From Aurantiochytrium sp. KH105 (lineage: Eukaryota > Sar > Bigyra > Thraustochytrida > Thraustochytriidae): a stretch of DNA of 64,000 bases. The DNA lies in NCBI GenBank assembly GCA_003116975.1, contig BGKB01000025.1:519516-583515 (forward strand). Reading direction: 5' to 3'. How positions within the stretch are numbered: position 1 is the stretch's first letter; each line of letters begins with the position of its first letter. The notes beneath the pieces are model-generated. The model saw only the letters and a program-made list of their open reading frames with translations. It had not been told where the DNA came from and did no database searches. Below, piece by piece: positions 52,988 to 61,700 of this stretch. The translations under genes were made by a program, and so were the position numbers.

Positions 52988-54086
52988 ATGACGACGAGTG
53001 CGTTGGGACGGGGACGCGCCGCTGCGGCGACCGGGGCGGCGAGGAGAACCGGGACGACGGCGAGGGGAGGGACGAGAAGACTCGAGGTCACGCCGCGATG
53101 GGCGCTGCGGGAGGAAAACCTGGCCGAAGCGGAAAATAAGGCCTTTAGTGTGCCGTATTTACCGCCGCGTGAGGGCGAGTCCCACGCGCAAGCACGGGAA
53201 GCCGTCTTGGAGGCCTGCAGCCGACTCGTGGCTGCCAGGGCCTCGCGCGTGTGCTGCCATGTGCCTGCACGGCGATTTGCAGAAAAAGCAGAGCTGAGGG
53301 ACTTTGCTCGCGCGCTCGCGGAAAGTGGCGTCACCGAAGTGCTCGCGCTGGCAGGCGATGGGCCCGAACGAAGTCCTGCGTGCTACGACGCCAGTCATGT
53401 TCTCGAGACCCTCCTCGACGAACCTGGTGCCCAAGGTGCCCTTGAATGTATTGGCGTGGCCGCTTACCCAACAGGACATGCTATTGCCGAGGATAGTCAA
53501 CTTTGGCAAGCCTTGGAACGAAAAGCAGATCTTCTGAGCACGAAGAAGCCTGCNCAGTCATGTTCTCGAGACCCTCCTCGACGAACCTGGTGCCCAAGGT
53601 GCCCTTGAATGTATTGGCGTGGCCGCTTACCCAACAGGACATGCTATTGCCGAGGATAGTCAACTTTGGCAAGCCTTGGAACGAAAAGCAGATCTTCTGA
53701 GCACGAAGAAGCCTGCCTCGCAAGTTTTCGTTGCAACGCAACTCGGCCTGAGTACTAGCGCTCTTGTAAACTGGCACGAGAATTTACGAGCCAAGGTTCC
53801 CTTTCTGGGCAATGCAGAGCTTTGCGTGGGTGTATTTGGACTCGTGCCCGCATCGCGGACGCGGACGCTTGCGAGACGCTTGGGATTTGGAAAGGGGCTT
53901 GTCGGTCTCATGGAGAGTTTGCCGTCGGATTCGCTCATGAGTCGCGCGTCGGCGGAAGTACTGAGCTCTGCAGCACTTCCTCAGGCCGTCTCCTTACATA
54001 TTTCTACATTTGATACAAGAGTTCTTGCAGCGGACACATTCTGGGCAAAATGGTTCCAGGGCTATTCTCAACATGGACGAGACTGA
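52988..54086 (+). CDS. MetF/MTHFR-like protein, frame broken by an assembly duplication
   Basis: The ATG at 52988 opens a frame that breaks at a single N (53554). Next to the N, 162 bp are duplicated exactly. Counting the duplicated segment once, 52988-53553 followed by 53717-54086 stays in phase and predicts 311 residues. Motifs TEVLALAGDGP, IGVAAYPTGH and QVFVATQLG line up with the TIM-barrel core of methylenetetrahydrofolate reductases (LALRGDPP, VAGYPEGH, FIITQLFF). It is a divergent single-domain member without the eukaryotic regulatory domain, so the reaction is uncertain; FAD binding cannot be judged. The N-terminus is Arg/Ala/Thr-rich and may be a mitochondrial presequence. Confidence 0.7.
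53392..53553. repeat. 162-bp exact duplication, copy 1
   Basis: Identical to 53555-53716 and separated from it by one N. The 163-bp offset breaks the reading frame. Best read as two contig ends joined without merging their overlap. Confidence 0.95.
53554..53554. other. Assembly gap (single N)
   Basis: The only ambiguous base noticed in the window, exactly between the two duplicated 162-bp segments. Confidence 0.95.
53555..53716. repeat. 162-bp exact duplication, copy 2
   Basis: Second copy of the overlap sequence; the open frame resumes through it to the stop at 54086. Confidence 0.95.
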
Positions 54087-54402: not shown

Positions 54403-55707
54403 TCATTGCCGTGTACCTTCGGCGTGCAGCGCAACGCGAAGGGCGTGCAGCTCATTGCGCATGGCATCAAGCTCAGCCTTGAGTTCTTGCACAGCACCAA
54501 CAAGCATGGGAACCAGCGAAGCGTATTGAACCGACTTCATGCCCTGCGCGTCGGTGCGCACAACCTCGGGGACAATTTGCTCGACCTCTTGGGCCACAAA
54601 GCCAATCTGCGTGCCGCGGTCGAAAGACTTTTCAGGGTAGGCCTCGTGACGAAACTCAAAGGTGACCGGGCGCAGTGCCCTGACGCGATCCAAATTGCGA
54701 GCAAGATCGGCAATATCCTTTTTCCAGCGACGATCCGAGGCCGAAGAGTATGCCGACGTCCCTTGAACGCCTCCATTGACGTCAAGCTTGACACTGGGCC
54801 AGCGGGTTCCAAGGCCGAGATTTCCTTCGGTATCGACAACGAGAGCATCGCGCGGAGCACTGTGTGCAATGCTAACGACGCGATGGGTGCCCTGCAGGAT
54901 GCCAAATCCGGACGCGGCACTGTTTTCCACGGCCCAGGCTGCCGCGGCGCTGTTGAGTTCGAGCCTACTCGCGTTGGTCGAGACAGCAGCATCGCCAAGG
55001 GTGGCAGATCCAGACGTTGCAGTGAGGGAGCCCACCGTGAGTCGAGTCTTGGCGTCTGCACCAGGTGCATCGGCATCTTCATTGCTGTCATTTTCAAAAA
55101 CGGCGCCCTGCACCCGAACGCGCGTTGCCTCAGAATACAGCGCAATGGGAACCGTCGCGCGGATTGTGGCCGCTCCGTGATCCACGCGCATTGCTGCACG
55201 CGAGGAGGCTGGTCCCTCCATGACAAGCTCGCTCGCATGGTCTGCATTGACAATCTGTAGCCCACCACGAGTAACCCGAAGTGCCACTGCGTCCGCGGGA
55301 GAGGAGACGCCGCCACCGCTCACGTCAAGTTTGTCGACTTGGAAAACGCCCGAGCCGAGTAGTTTCGCTTGAGCGTCGGGTCCCACGGCAAAGCGAAGTT
55401 CCGAGGATGCGCCGCCTTCATTTGGCACGGCTGCAATATATCCGAAAGCCTCCTCGAGACCTGCGACGCCGGTATCTTCGTGGACAAACTTGACGCCTCG
55501 GGCGTGACCTCGAGCCGACTCGGGTTCTCCGCCTGTCCGGATCGCAATGAAGCAGTCTCCCTCATCGTTGCGCCCGCACCACGCGTGTGCTGGCGTCGGG
55601 ACCCAGGCTACCGCCGCCAGGCAGCAAGCTGTCGCGGCCGCGGCGGCGAGTCCGCGGCTCAACCGTCGTGATTTCGAGGACCTCGACGACCTCGAGGCCG
55701 AGTTCAT
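54403..55707 (-). CDS. Secreted fibre-like protein with C-terminal S74/ICA self-cleaving chaperone
   Basis: A 434-residue protein from the ATG at 55707. A basic start and hydrophobic AAAAATACCLAAVAWV stretch ending AHA-W form a signal peptide (cleavage about 42). The middle is Ala/Ser/Thr/Asp-rich with repeated beta-strand-like units and GNLGLGTRWPSVKLDVNG, closely resembling the GIGT-SP-KLDVNG motif of phage and bacterial tail-fibre proteins. The last about 111 residues match Peptidase_S74, the intramolecular chaperone of endosialidase tailspikes and MYRF. They include SDRRWK with Ser324 and Lys329 at the spacing of the MYRF Ser-Lys dyad, IGFVAQEVEQIVPEVV, and a final coiled coil. By family it should trimerise, then cut before Ser324. 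The role is unknown: a surface or secreted fibre is inferred. Confidence 0.88.
   Translation of the reverse strand: MNSASRSSRSSKSRRLSRGLAAAAATACCLAAVAWVPTPAHAWCGRNDEGDCFIAIRTGGEPESARGHARGVKFVHEDTGVAGLEEAFGYIAAVPNEGGASSELRFAVGPDAQAKLLGSGVFQVDKLDVSGGGVSSPADAVALRVTRGGLQIVNADHASELVMEGPASSRAAMRVDHGAATIRATVPIALYSEATRVRVQGAVFENDSNEDADAPGADAKTRLTVGSLTATSGSATLGDAAVSTNASRLELNSAAAAWAVENSAASGFGILQGTHRVVSIAHSAPRDALVVDTEGNLGLGTRWPSVKLDVNGGVQGTSAYSSASDRRWKKDIADLARNLDRVRALRPVTFEFRHEAYPEKSFDRGTQIGFVAQEVEQIVPEVVRTDAQGMKSVQYASLVPMLVGAVQELKAELDAMRNELHALRVALHAEGTRQ
54736..54738 (-). other. Predicted autocleavage serine codon (Ser324)
   Basis: This TCG codon encodes the Ser of S-D-R-R-W-K. In MYRF and endosialidases, cleavage occurs immediately before this Ser using a Lys five residues later; both residues are kept here. 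Confidence 0.7.
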
Positions 55708-58541: not shown

Positions 58542-58750
58542 CTACCTGTCAATGGACAAAGTAGCATCGAGGGAAAAATCCGCTTCGCAAACCTAACCTA
58601 ACCTGACCTGAAGAGCATCGCATGGTCGGGCAGACTAGTTTTTGGTTCCCCAGGGGCAGTCTCGTCGTGGCCAGCAGTCGCGGAAACTAATCGCCGCCAC
58701 GCGCGGGACTTGAAGCGAGGCGAGGCGAGCCGCGGGATCCCGCATCGACG

Positions 58751-58778
58751 CGGCACGGCACGGCACGGCACGGCACGA
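58751..58778 (+). repeat. (CGGCA)n pentanucleotide repeat
   Basis: Five to six tandem CGGCA units about 65 bp upstream of the hAT-derived ATG. Confidence 0.9.
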
Positions 58779-58841
58779 CTCGACCCAGGCCGAGACCCGC
58801 GCTGGTCCGGGCGAGCCTCTGCGTGGCGCGGACGAGGAAAA

Positions 58842-61700
58842 ATGGCCTCGAAACGCAAGACGCGCGGACGCGAGGTCGGCATGGCGCTGCCGCCGGGCCT
58901 CGGCGGGGAAGGACTCGGCGCGCAGTTTGAGGGAGAGGCAGGACCCGGCGAAGCAGGCACCACCACCGGTGGCGCCGTTGGTGCCGCTGCCGACGCCGGC
59001 GCCGCTGCGGACCTGAGTGTGCATTCAGGCCGCAGGCAACCTACAACGGCAGAGCTGATTAAGGCAACCGACGCAGAGTTCATTCGCAGAACGTGGGAAG
59101 AGCAGTACGAGCGCGTGGGAAAAAAACTTCTCAGCCCGCCGCCGGCGATCGAGAACATTTTCTTCACTCCCGTTAAGACCTCTGTGCTCAAGGCACACGG
59201 GGTCAAGTTCTACGTGCATGAAGACAAGGAAGGCGAATCGGATACGCACTACTTTTTGTGTTTGGCCGAAGATGGTGAGTGCCTGCGGCGTGGGAATGCG
59301 CCCATCATCCGGATCCAAGACTCTTCCACAGCCCGAGCCACAAGGCATCTCAAGATCACCCACGGAGTGATTCCCAACAAAACGCGCAGTGCCGAGGCCA
59401 AACGCGCTGTTGTCGACGCCCGCACAGAAATCATGACGGACTGCGTCAAGTCGGCGCCCAAACGCACACTCCAACATCTCGTAGCGCTCTTGGCGAACCG
59501 TGGATCCTGGTCATATAGCACCTTTAAGCTGCAGGAGTGGCGCGTTCTGTGCCGCCTCTTTGGCGTTGAACGCGAGCTGGCTACGCAAATGGATGTTGTG
59601 CAAATCATGACCGAGCAGTATGCCTACATTCGCAACTCAATTCGTGACCGCATTGCCGCAGCACGCGTTCAGGCCCAAGGCCTTCCCTTCCTTTCTGTCA
59701 GTCTTGATCTCTCCAGCAACCCGATGCAGCGTCGGCGCTTGGTGTCGGTTCGCGTCTCCTTTGTTGGCGAGAACAACGATGTGGAAAGCTACAATTTGGC
59801 CATTCGTTCCTACAAGCCGTGCCGCCAAGTGAGCAAGCACGCTCGCGTCCTCTACCAGTTTCTCGATGGAGTCCTCAAGCATTTTGGTGTCTCTGGCGAC
59901 ATGGTCCTGACTGCCGTTGCTCGCGGCGGGCCCGAGTTGCTGCAGCATCTTTTCGTCAAGGAGATGATCAGCGCTCGCTTCGAGCTGTGTCTCTCTCACA
60001 TTCTGCAAATGGCTGTGCGCGATGCGCTCAATGAGATACGAGAGCTTCTCAACCGGATGGGTGATACCATCGCCTACGTTAGCAAGCTTTCGCACGAGAC
60101 GTTGTTTTTCAATATTCAGCGAGAGCTGTTCAAGACGGAACCTGCGCGTCTGATTCGCTTCGCTGATCAGAACTGGCTCGCCCTCGAGCCGGTTCTCCGT
60201 CGCTTCGTAGATCTCGGGCCGGCCATTGAAGAGTTCTACAAGCGCATCAAGGAAAAGAGTCCCATGCGGGTAAATGAGATGGATGCGGTGCACGAGGTGC
60301 TCAGCATTCTGCAGCCGTTTTACGAGGTGCAAGAAATGTCGCAAGATACCGGACTCGTTTGCCTCGACACGATAGCTTGCCTTCAGAGCGCAATCATTGC
60401 CCTCAAGAACAGGAACCACGTGAGGATGGTCCCTCGCGCGATTCCCAACGGCGAAGGAGCGATTGGCGAGATGTTTCAGGATCGCCCCGTTGCGGAACTT
60501 ACAGAGAGTGCAGCGCGGGCGTCCGTGAAGCTCCTGAGCCAGCTCGACACGAGTTACTTTGATCGTTTCCACGCCGCGCGCGCCTTGCAGGACCACGACC
60601 GCTCGCGTATTCTTCGCTTTGCTCACGAGAATCGCCAGAACGGCGACGCTGTCTACGATGTCAAGGCACAGGAGCTCAAATTTTCCTTTGTCTTCGAGAC
60701 GCTCTTCTTTTTGCACCCCAAGACCAAGTCACTCGAGCTCATTGACGCCATTGTCATGCGACACTTTGCAAACATCTCCTCCACAGAACTGGGAGATCTG
60801 GTCGCGCCGCATGATGCAGCCTCGCATCACCAGCGCATGTTGCGCCAGTACATTATCAACACAGTCGAGGATATGTGCATTCGCGTTGCGGAGATTGCAG
60901 CAGGAGGCGGCCCGCCGCCATCGATGCCGCCGCCGCCGCCGCCCCCCCTTGACGCGCAACAAGCTCGTGGCGTCTCGAGCGTCCCTGCCGACGAAGACCT
61001 CGAGGGTGGACATCACGGGGACCAAGATCTTGGTGGCTCCGTCGAAGCCGTTGCTTGGGATGCTTCTGGCGACGTAGGCTTTGCTAACGGGCCAACCTCA
61101 GTTGCTGGTGTTCCTGCCCGACCCGCGAAACGTGCACGGCAGAGCGCAGGCACCGATTACCTCGATGTGCTCTTTGCTGCCGTCGGGCGCTCCCGGACGG
61201 ACGCGCCTGAGGCACCTCCTGAAGCTCCTGCGGAAGCGCCTCGCGCCCAAGCCCAACGTGAAATTTCGCGTTATGTATCAATGGAGGTCACGGAAGAAAT
61301 GCAGACCTTGCAGGGCGCGGAACTACTTCGCTGGTGGGCAGGCAAAAGCCGGCAATTTCCTCTTCTTTCCACGGTTGCGTTGTGCATGCTCGGCACGATT
61401 CCCTCTTGCGCGGTGAATGATGCGCCGCGACAGAATCGCTCCCGTCTTAGCACGGCAAATGTTGACCTTTCGACGGCTGTTGCGCTCAATAAAGACATTC
61501 TTCCCGAGGAGCTCCACACGATTCCCGTGCTGGGAAGGAAGCAGGCGTCAGATCTTCGCAACGATCTCGAGGCCACCTTTAATTTTCCCGAGCTTGAGGG
61601 GGAGGGTATCGATGACGAGGTCCTTGCGCCGTCGCACGCTTCGGCGGCCGCGGCCGCCGCGCTTGATCTAGGCGAGGACTCTGAAATGGCGGACCTTTGA
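58842..61700 (+). CDS. hAT-transposase-derived protein, probably domesticated
   Basis: A 952-residue intact frame from the ATG at 58842. Residues about 110-170 contain a possible BED-type finger (FLCLAEDGEC, then HLKITH). The core resembles the hAT RNase H domain: SVSLDLSSNPMQRRR has the first Asp, and FELCLSHILQMAVRDAL matches the CxxH helix. The block usually reading TDNASN is TAVARGG here, so the second catalytic Asp appears lost. A Pro-rich and Ala-rich insert precedes a clear hAT dimerisation region (about 808-885) with AELLRWWAGKSRQFPLLS. The acidic tail ends MADL. No inverted repeats or target duplication are visible. A host-recruited DNA-binding protein is inferred. Confidence 0.82.
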   Translation: MASKRKTRGREVGMALPPGLGGEGLGAQFEGEAGPGEAGTTTGGAVGAAADAGAAADLSVHSGRRQPTTAELIKATDAEFIRRTWEEQYERVGKKLLSPPPAIENIFFTPVKTSVLKAHGVKFYVHEDKEGESDTHYFLCLAEDGECLRRGNAPIIRIQDSSTARATRHLKITHGVIPNKTRSAEAKRAVVDARTEIMTDCVKSAPKRTLQHLVALLANRGSWSYSTFKLQEWRVLCRLFGVERELATQMDVVQIMTEQYAYIRNSIRDRIAAARVQAQGLPFLSVSLDLSSNPMQRRRLVSVRVSFVGENNDVESYNLAIRSYKPCRQVSKHARVLYQFLDGVLKHFGVSGDMVLTAVARGGPELLQHLFVKEMISARFELCLSHILQMAVRDALNEIRELLNRMGDTIAYVSKLSHETLFFNIQRELFKTEPARLIRFADQNWLALEPVLRRFVDLGPAIEEFYKRIKEKSPMRVNEMDAVHEVLSILQPFYEVQEMSQDTGLVCLDTIACLQSAIIALKNRNHVRMVPRAIPNGEGAIGEMFQDRPVAELTESAARASVKLLSQLDTSYFDRFHAARALQDHDRSRILRFAHENRQNGDAVYDVKAQELKFSFVFETLFFLHPKTKSLELIDAIVMRHFANISSTELGDLVAPHDAASHHQRMLRQYIINTVEDMCIRVAEIAAGGGPPPSMPPPPPPPLDAQQARGVSSVPADEDLEGGHHGDQDLGGSVEAVAWDASGDVGFANGPTSVAGVPARPAKRARQSAGTDYLDVLFAAVGRSRTDAPEAPPEAPAEAPRAQAQREISRYVSMEVTEEMQTLQGAELLRWWAGKSRQFPLLSTVALCMLGTIPSCAVNDAPRQNRSRLSTANVDLSTAVALNKDILPEELHTIPVLGRKQASDLRNDLEATFNFPELEGEGIDDEVLAPSHASAAAAAALDLGEDSEMADL

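Follow-up and report, generated by a model that had tools for sequence, protein, structure and literature searches.

What does a nuclear gene make when its product starts like a secreted protein and ends like a phage tail fibre? This question was raised by an open reading frame (ORF) of the thraustochytrid Aurantiochytrium sp. KH105, located in the terminal 64 kb of contig C25 (the window, which is the whole stretch of DNA analysed here; assembly of 76 Mb, 367 contigs). The original prediction, made from the letters alone, had described a secreted fibre-like protein with an active S74/ICA domain. Its observation of the sequence was confirmed, and its interpretation was partly supported. Taken together, the results were best explained by a gene that probably encodes a secreted homotrimeric fibre. 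The mechanism appears well supported by homology, and the role at the cell surface is a guess.

The S74/ICA domain and its dyad

The Pfam check proposed with the original prediction matched PF13884 at residues 324-384 (E = 2.9e-15), scoring 56.7 bits where the cut-off is 22. It was the sole Pfam family in the protein at E up to 1. The model of this part was predicted to have the ICA fold, and its best fold match was MyRF. The stalk and ICA of MyRF could be aligned from residue 293 onward. The claimed GLGT-P-KLDVNG motif was present as GLGTRWPSVKLDVNG at residues 298-312, and W303, P304 and L308-G313 were invariant in alignment A1. We assign the protein to the S74/ICA domain family and not to MYRF.

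The Ser324/Lys329 dyad was invariant in 30 alignment rows, as were Asp325 and Gly369. The two dyad residues were five residues apart, which was equal to S587-K592 of MyRF, as had been claimed. The available text of PMC8326128 describes that the S587A and K592A mutations of MyRF abolished cleavage. In the last helix, 9 of 10 a/d heptad positions were hydrophobic, and this was reached by 2 of 5000 shuffles. The homology, namely the intact dyad and the MyRF-like predicted ICA fold, suggests that the protein may trimerise and then cleave itself; to that extent the original prediction of self-cleavage was supported.

The secretion signal, the family module and the body

The claim of a signal peptide agreed with the hydropathy of the start and its A-x-A/W site. 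The highest mean over 19 residues was 1.77, at residue 19. Past residue 45 it peaked at 0.90, and therefore no second membrane span was evident. With the Pfam result, this supported the original reading that the protein has neither a MYRF DNA-binding domain nor a membrane span C-terminal of the predicted cut. Of 10 family members inspected, 9 had an A/G-W-C junction close to the start. In P0003 and P0009, possibly truncated models, the hydrophobic stretch ahead of it was weak. Judging by the aligned sequences, the following module (WC-x7-C ... EEAFG.IA.VPN) is the family's own, and its WC-x7-C pair contained the sole cysteines of the predicted mature chain in 6 of 10 members.

PHROG tail-fibre profiles covered residues 178-425 (25 of the 42 matching families were listed). 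Among the matches listed, the best was phrog_5668 (E = 1.2e-25, residues 243-425), and phrog_1699 extended furthest back, to residue 178. Two points qualify the fibre-like body. The profile support for a fibre-like body, among the matches listed, starts only at about residue 178, and the body modelled alone gave a predicted local distance difference test score (pLDDT) of 48. For a trimeric beta-helical body of the kind known from MAT fibres, the Foldseek rows were 8ond, 8oml and 8onc, with large root-mean-square deviations. The tail-fibre-like body of the original prediction was thus supported by profiles from about residue 178, but not for the part N-terminal of it or for the fold of the body.

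Proposed mechanism

A similar plan is known from the MAT fibres of Bdellovibrio. According to the available text of PMC10769870, these have a signal peptide, right behind it a conserved domain that is rich in beta structure and about 130 residues long, a beta-rich chain and a terminal S74 domain with SDxxxK in 13 of 21. Bd3182 cuts itself at S782, and this was blocked by S782A. The window protein was alike in its signal-peptide-like start, beta-rich chain and C-terminal S74 domain with SDxxxK, and also in the P1 residue, which is Ala in both (A781/S782 in Bd3182; A323/S324 predicted here). However, the MAT fibres are bacterial and have about 1,000 residues, whereas the window protein is eukaryotic and has about 430. 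By this analogy we propose likeness to the MAT fibres, not membership among them. Phage tail fibres and endosialidases with ICA (K1F 3gw6, T5 4uw8) were alike in the C-terminal ICA behind a fibre and in the PHROG match. In contrast, the window protein is nuclear-encoded and predicted to be secreted, without a virion, and only the C-terminal part was common. Matches were found in 489 phage records, every one below 60% identity and none spanning 80% of the query.

The MAT-like plan, with no DNA-binding domain and no later membrane span, therefore points to a fibre that would be built in the secretory pathway, trimmed there and then exported. The signal peptide would bring the chain into the endoplasmic reticulum (ER) and would be removed ahead of Trp43, as the sequence suggests. 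The helix at residues 395-433 would unite three ICA domains, and the stalk and body would be drawn into the trimer; homology and the predicted monomer fold are consistent with this. Trimer assembly would position Ser324 and Lys329, and each chain with its intact dyad would cut itself between Ala323 and Ser324. This would yield two pieces, the body (residues 43-323, about 28.5 kDa) and the ICA part (residues 324-434, about 12.7 kDa). The trimeric body, headed by the conserved Cys44/Cys52 pair, might then be exported to serve as a short fibre at the surface or outside the cell, and we would guess that its role is most likely adhesive or structural. An adhesin, a scale coat, a flagellar hair and an ectoplasmic-net component are all possible, and the evidence favours none. 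In its working mode the protein would resemble phage tail fibres and MAT fibres, not the transcription factor MYRF.

The best surviving alternative, still an unlikely one, was a secreted trimer in which the ICA is a mere trimerisation clamp retained in the fibre, with slow or absent cleavage. A dyad by itself is no proof of cleavage. In addition, TMEM98 was reported as an inhibitor of MyRF self-cleavage (available text of PMC8326128), and therefore other factors can restrain cleavage. However, the retention of the dyad in 13 of 13 family members, along with Asp325 and Gly369, argues against a mere clamp.

A host gene in two copies

A second copy was found on contig C199 with 97% identity. The copies differed in 32 codons; the change was silent in 20 and altered the amino acid in 12 (dN 0.0126, dS 0.0615), and the 8 kb flanking them was syntenic and alignable at 93-95% identity. 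We infer that paired contigs such as C25/C199 are haplotypes. The closest named relative was a protein of the thraustochytrid Hondaea fermentalgiana, 98% identical end to end and encoded on a 230-kb contig. The original observation was more than chance because of the second copy, with its mostly silent changes, and the full-length match in Hondaea. Pfam families were found in 4 of the 7 neighbouring ORFs scanned (aldehyde dehydrogenase, ribosomal S5-family, MTHFR-family and UAA-type transporter); the remaining 3 of 7 had no Pfam match, and none of the seven matched a viral family. The S74 gene is a host gene, not contamination. No in-frame stop occurred in the ORF, and from the frame and the neighbours it would be an intron-less nuclear gene. 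The original prediction had said the same; its eukaryotic host gene was supported, and the lack of introns is read from the frame and the neighbours.

It was also weighed, and found improbable, whether the gene is a remnant or a present part of an integrated DNA virus, for instance a polinton-like virus with an S74 fibre. The available text of PMC12220804 reports S74-bearing fibres as widespread in polinton-like viruses of many eukaryotes. In these, as in the window gene, S74 stands at the C-terminal end of a fibre-like protein encoded in protist DNA. Viral models in BFVD gave 179 matches at E up to 0.001, and algal-virus proteins were among the matches listed. However, the seven scanned neighbours of the window gene included no viral gene recognised by Pfam, whether for capsid, packaging or integrase, and both copies were syntenic. 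The family to which the gene belongs is small and conserved and has an N-terminal module of its own, which was encoded by 0 of 71 pattern-matched stretches in IMG/VR.

Relationship to MYRF and phylogeny

The ICA of MYRF works on the cytosolic side and frees a DNA-binding trimer. A membrane-bound transcription factor of this type, whose ICA cleavage releases an N-terminal regulator, was a very improbable reading of the window gene. It was favoured by the automatic database name of the Hondaea relative, 'Myelin regulatory factor-like', and by the best fold match. The ICA of MYRF/MrfA (PDB 7dc3) also shares the ICA fold, the Ser-Lys spacing, the stalk motif, a C-terminal helix of the four-heptad type and a eukaryotic host. 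However, neither the NDT80/PhoG DNA-binding domain nor the MYRF_ICA model had a Pfam match in the window protein at E up to 1. It lacks a membrane span after the ICA and has a signal-like start, and therefore its ICA would act in the ER lumen, not in the cytosol. Genome-wide searches for NDT80 and MYRF_ICA gave zero matches, yet the controls were equally silent and the searches were hence uninformative.

Two trees were made. The quick tree contained 117 rows and excluded own-genome duplicates, near-identical loci, the split matches P0012, P0014 and P0015, matches below 60 profile columns and most of those below 55 bits. The branch that had the family on one side was supported by no more than 62. 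On long branches, MYRF grouped with the S74 domains of a giant ORF of the same genome (91). The careful tree (54 rows x 147 columns, hand-picked from the 117) omitted L048 with its long branch, two giant-ORF rows, two rows from phage PDB entries and the majority of the unnamed proteins. In it, the 10 family rows formed one clade (99/92). The sister group was P0010, P0019 and P0068, which are unnamed proteins (92/49), and the surroundings were bacterial and viral S74 sequences. The relatives from bacterial genomes belonged to Bdellovibrionota, Myxococcota, Verrucomicrobiota and others, among 25 loci. In the approximately unbiased (AU) test on this tree, grouping the family with MYRF (p-AU 0.317), with a 1230-aa ORF of the same genome (0.249) or with an ATAD3 fusion (0.194) was not rejected. 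The expected phage-like origin is one possible reading of these trees, and a common origin with MYRF is another. An ancient virus may have been the source of the ICA part.

Bacterial contamination or an assembly artefact, suggested by the many bacterial relatives outside the family and by a 162-bp duplication nearby, was hardly credible against two contigs with flanks 93-95% identical, eukaryotic neighbours and the relative recorded separately for Hondaea on a contig of 230 kb.

Positions of the features and neighbouring sequence

Table 1. Features of the S74 gene (window positions) and of the other S74 genes of the genome.
Feature	Position	Strand	Basis or remark
Whole coding sequence	54403..55707	-	ATG at 55707; 434 codons + stop, single open frame
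Residues 1-42, signal-peptide-like start, predicted cut AHA/W43	55582..55707	-	Hydropathy; cut site inferred
Residues 43-120, N-terminal module WC-x7-C ... IRTGG ... ARG..FVH ... EEAFG.IA.VPN	55348..55581	-	Family alignment
Residues 121-284, variable beta-rich body	54856..55347	-	Structure prediction; tail-fibre profiles extend back to residue 178
Residues 285-323, stalk with GLGTRWPSVKLDVNG, to predicted cut	54739..54855	-	Aligned to MyRF stalk
Residues 324-394, S74/ICA domain, predicted self-cleavage ahead of Ser324	54526..54738	-	Pfam, fold prediction, fold match
SDRRWK catalytic dyad (Ser324 54736-54738, Lys329 54721-54723)	54721..54738	-	SDxxxK in 13/13 family members
Residues 395-433, heptad-bearing C-terminal helix, predicted trimer coiled coil	54409..54525	-	Structure prediction, heptad test
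1230-aa ORF	L009:5015-8722 on C83; L010:4834-8541 on C85	-; -	C-terminal S74 with SDARLK
Giant open frame	C159:136684-180369 (L016-L028); C208:2-45937 (L020-L023, L029, L030)	+; -	
S74-ATAD3 fusion	L012:4731-7763 = G000 C40:313731-316763	+	Second copy on C64

Two side observations were made near the gene. At 53392-53716, about 0.7 kb from it, two identical 162-bp copies surround a single N at 53554 within the MTHFR-family frame; this looks like an assembly scar that cuts the MTHFR-family gene into two ORFs. At 58710-61700 (+), a 996-aa ORF had no Pfam match at E 0.001, and from a mere impression on reading we take it to recall a hAT-type transposase.

Other S74 genes of the same genome

The suggested search for paralogues succeeded. 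A profile search of the genome contigs gave 10 S74 matches, corresponding to four genes. Each gene occurred on two contigs, and one gene contained two S74 domains. The 1230-aa ORF is a longer relative of the window gene. Its start was signal-like with YGWC-x7-C, of the same kind, and its copies differed by dN 0.0135 and dS 0.0572. The giant frame ran for 14,528 codons on C159 (14,475 from the likely start Met) and 13,964 on C208 until the first unknown base, a length that could be misled by repeat-rich assembly. It had a signal-like start, Gly/Ser/Ala/Thr-rich repeats (glycine-rich, of a 15-residue type) and a sub-threshold PSI match. Internally it contained two S74 domains with intact SDxRIK, near residues 6416 and 7017.

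The fourth gene, on C40/C64, had a signal-like start followed directly by S74 (SDERLK), a long coiled coil, a membrane span recognised by eye, ATAD3_N (E 2.5e-14) and AAA (2.1e-23). A stronger ATAD3_N match was found on C104/C113 (E 1.1e-73), and therefore the fusion is probably an extra, divergent copy, as far as these matches indicate. The fusion recurred in Hondaea P0119, in P0120 (80% over the searched part) and in P0121 (47%). In P0121, which is filed under Durusdinium trenchii (origin as filed, possibly a contaminant), Cys replaces the dyad Ser.

Read jointly, these genes suggest a tentative picture, which we hold to be somewhat less probable than its contrary. Thraustochytrids may have adopted the phage ICA device as a general tool of the secretory pathway, for trimerisation followed by release. 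Four architectures would use it within one genome. Three are the 434-aa fibre, the related 1230-aa protein and the giant frame, read as a secreted repeat protein with an internal pair of ICA domains. The fourth is an AAA+ ATPase of the ATAD3 type with a signal anchor. In the last, ICA cleavage would remove the N-terminal signal segment, and the fibres would form a scale coat, a holdfast or an ectoplasmic-net coat.

Implications

Among the matches listed, no report of a secreted S74 protein of a thraustochytrid was found in the open-licence literature, and nothing was found there that links thraustochytrids with endosialidase or with ATAD3. The main text of PMC12221091, on an Aurantiochytrium proteome, contained zero occurrences of endosialidase, S74, myelin and tail fiber. 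The automatic name 'Myelin regulatory factor-like' is misleading for the family of the window gene. If the proposed reading is true, a host family of secreted fibre type would represent a separate use of the ICA device, in the ER lumen. It would also give a molecular handle on surface building and attachment in thraustochytrids.
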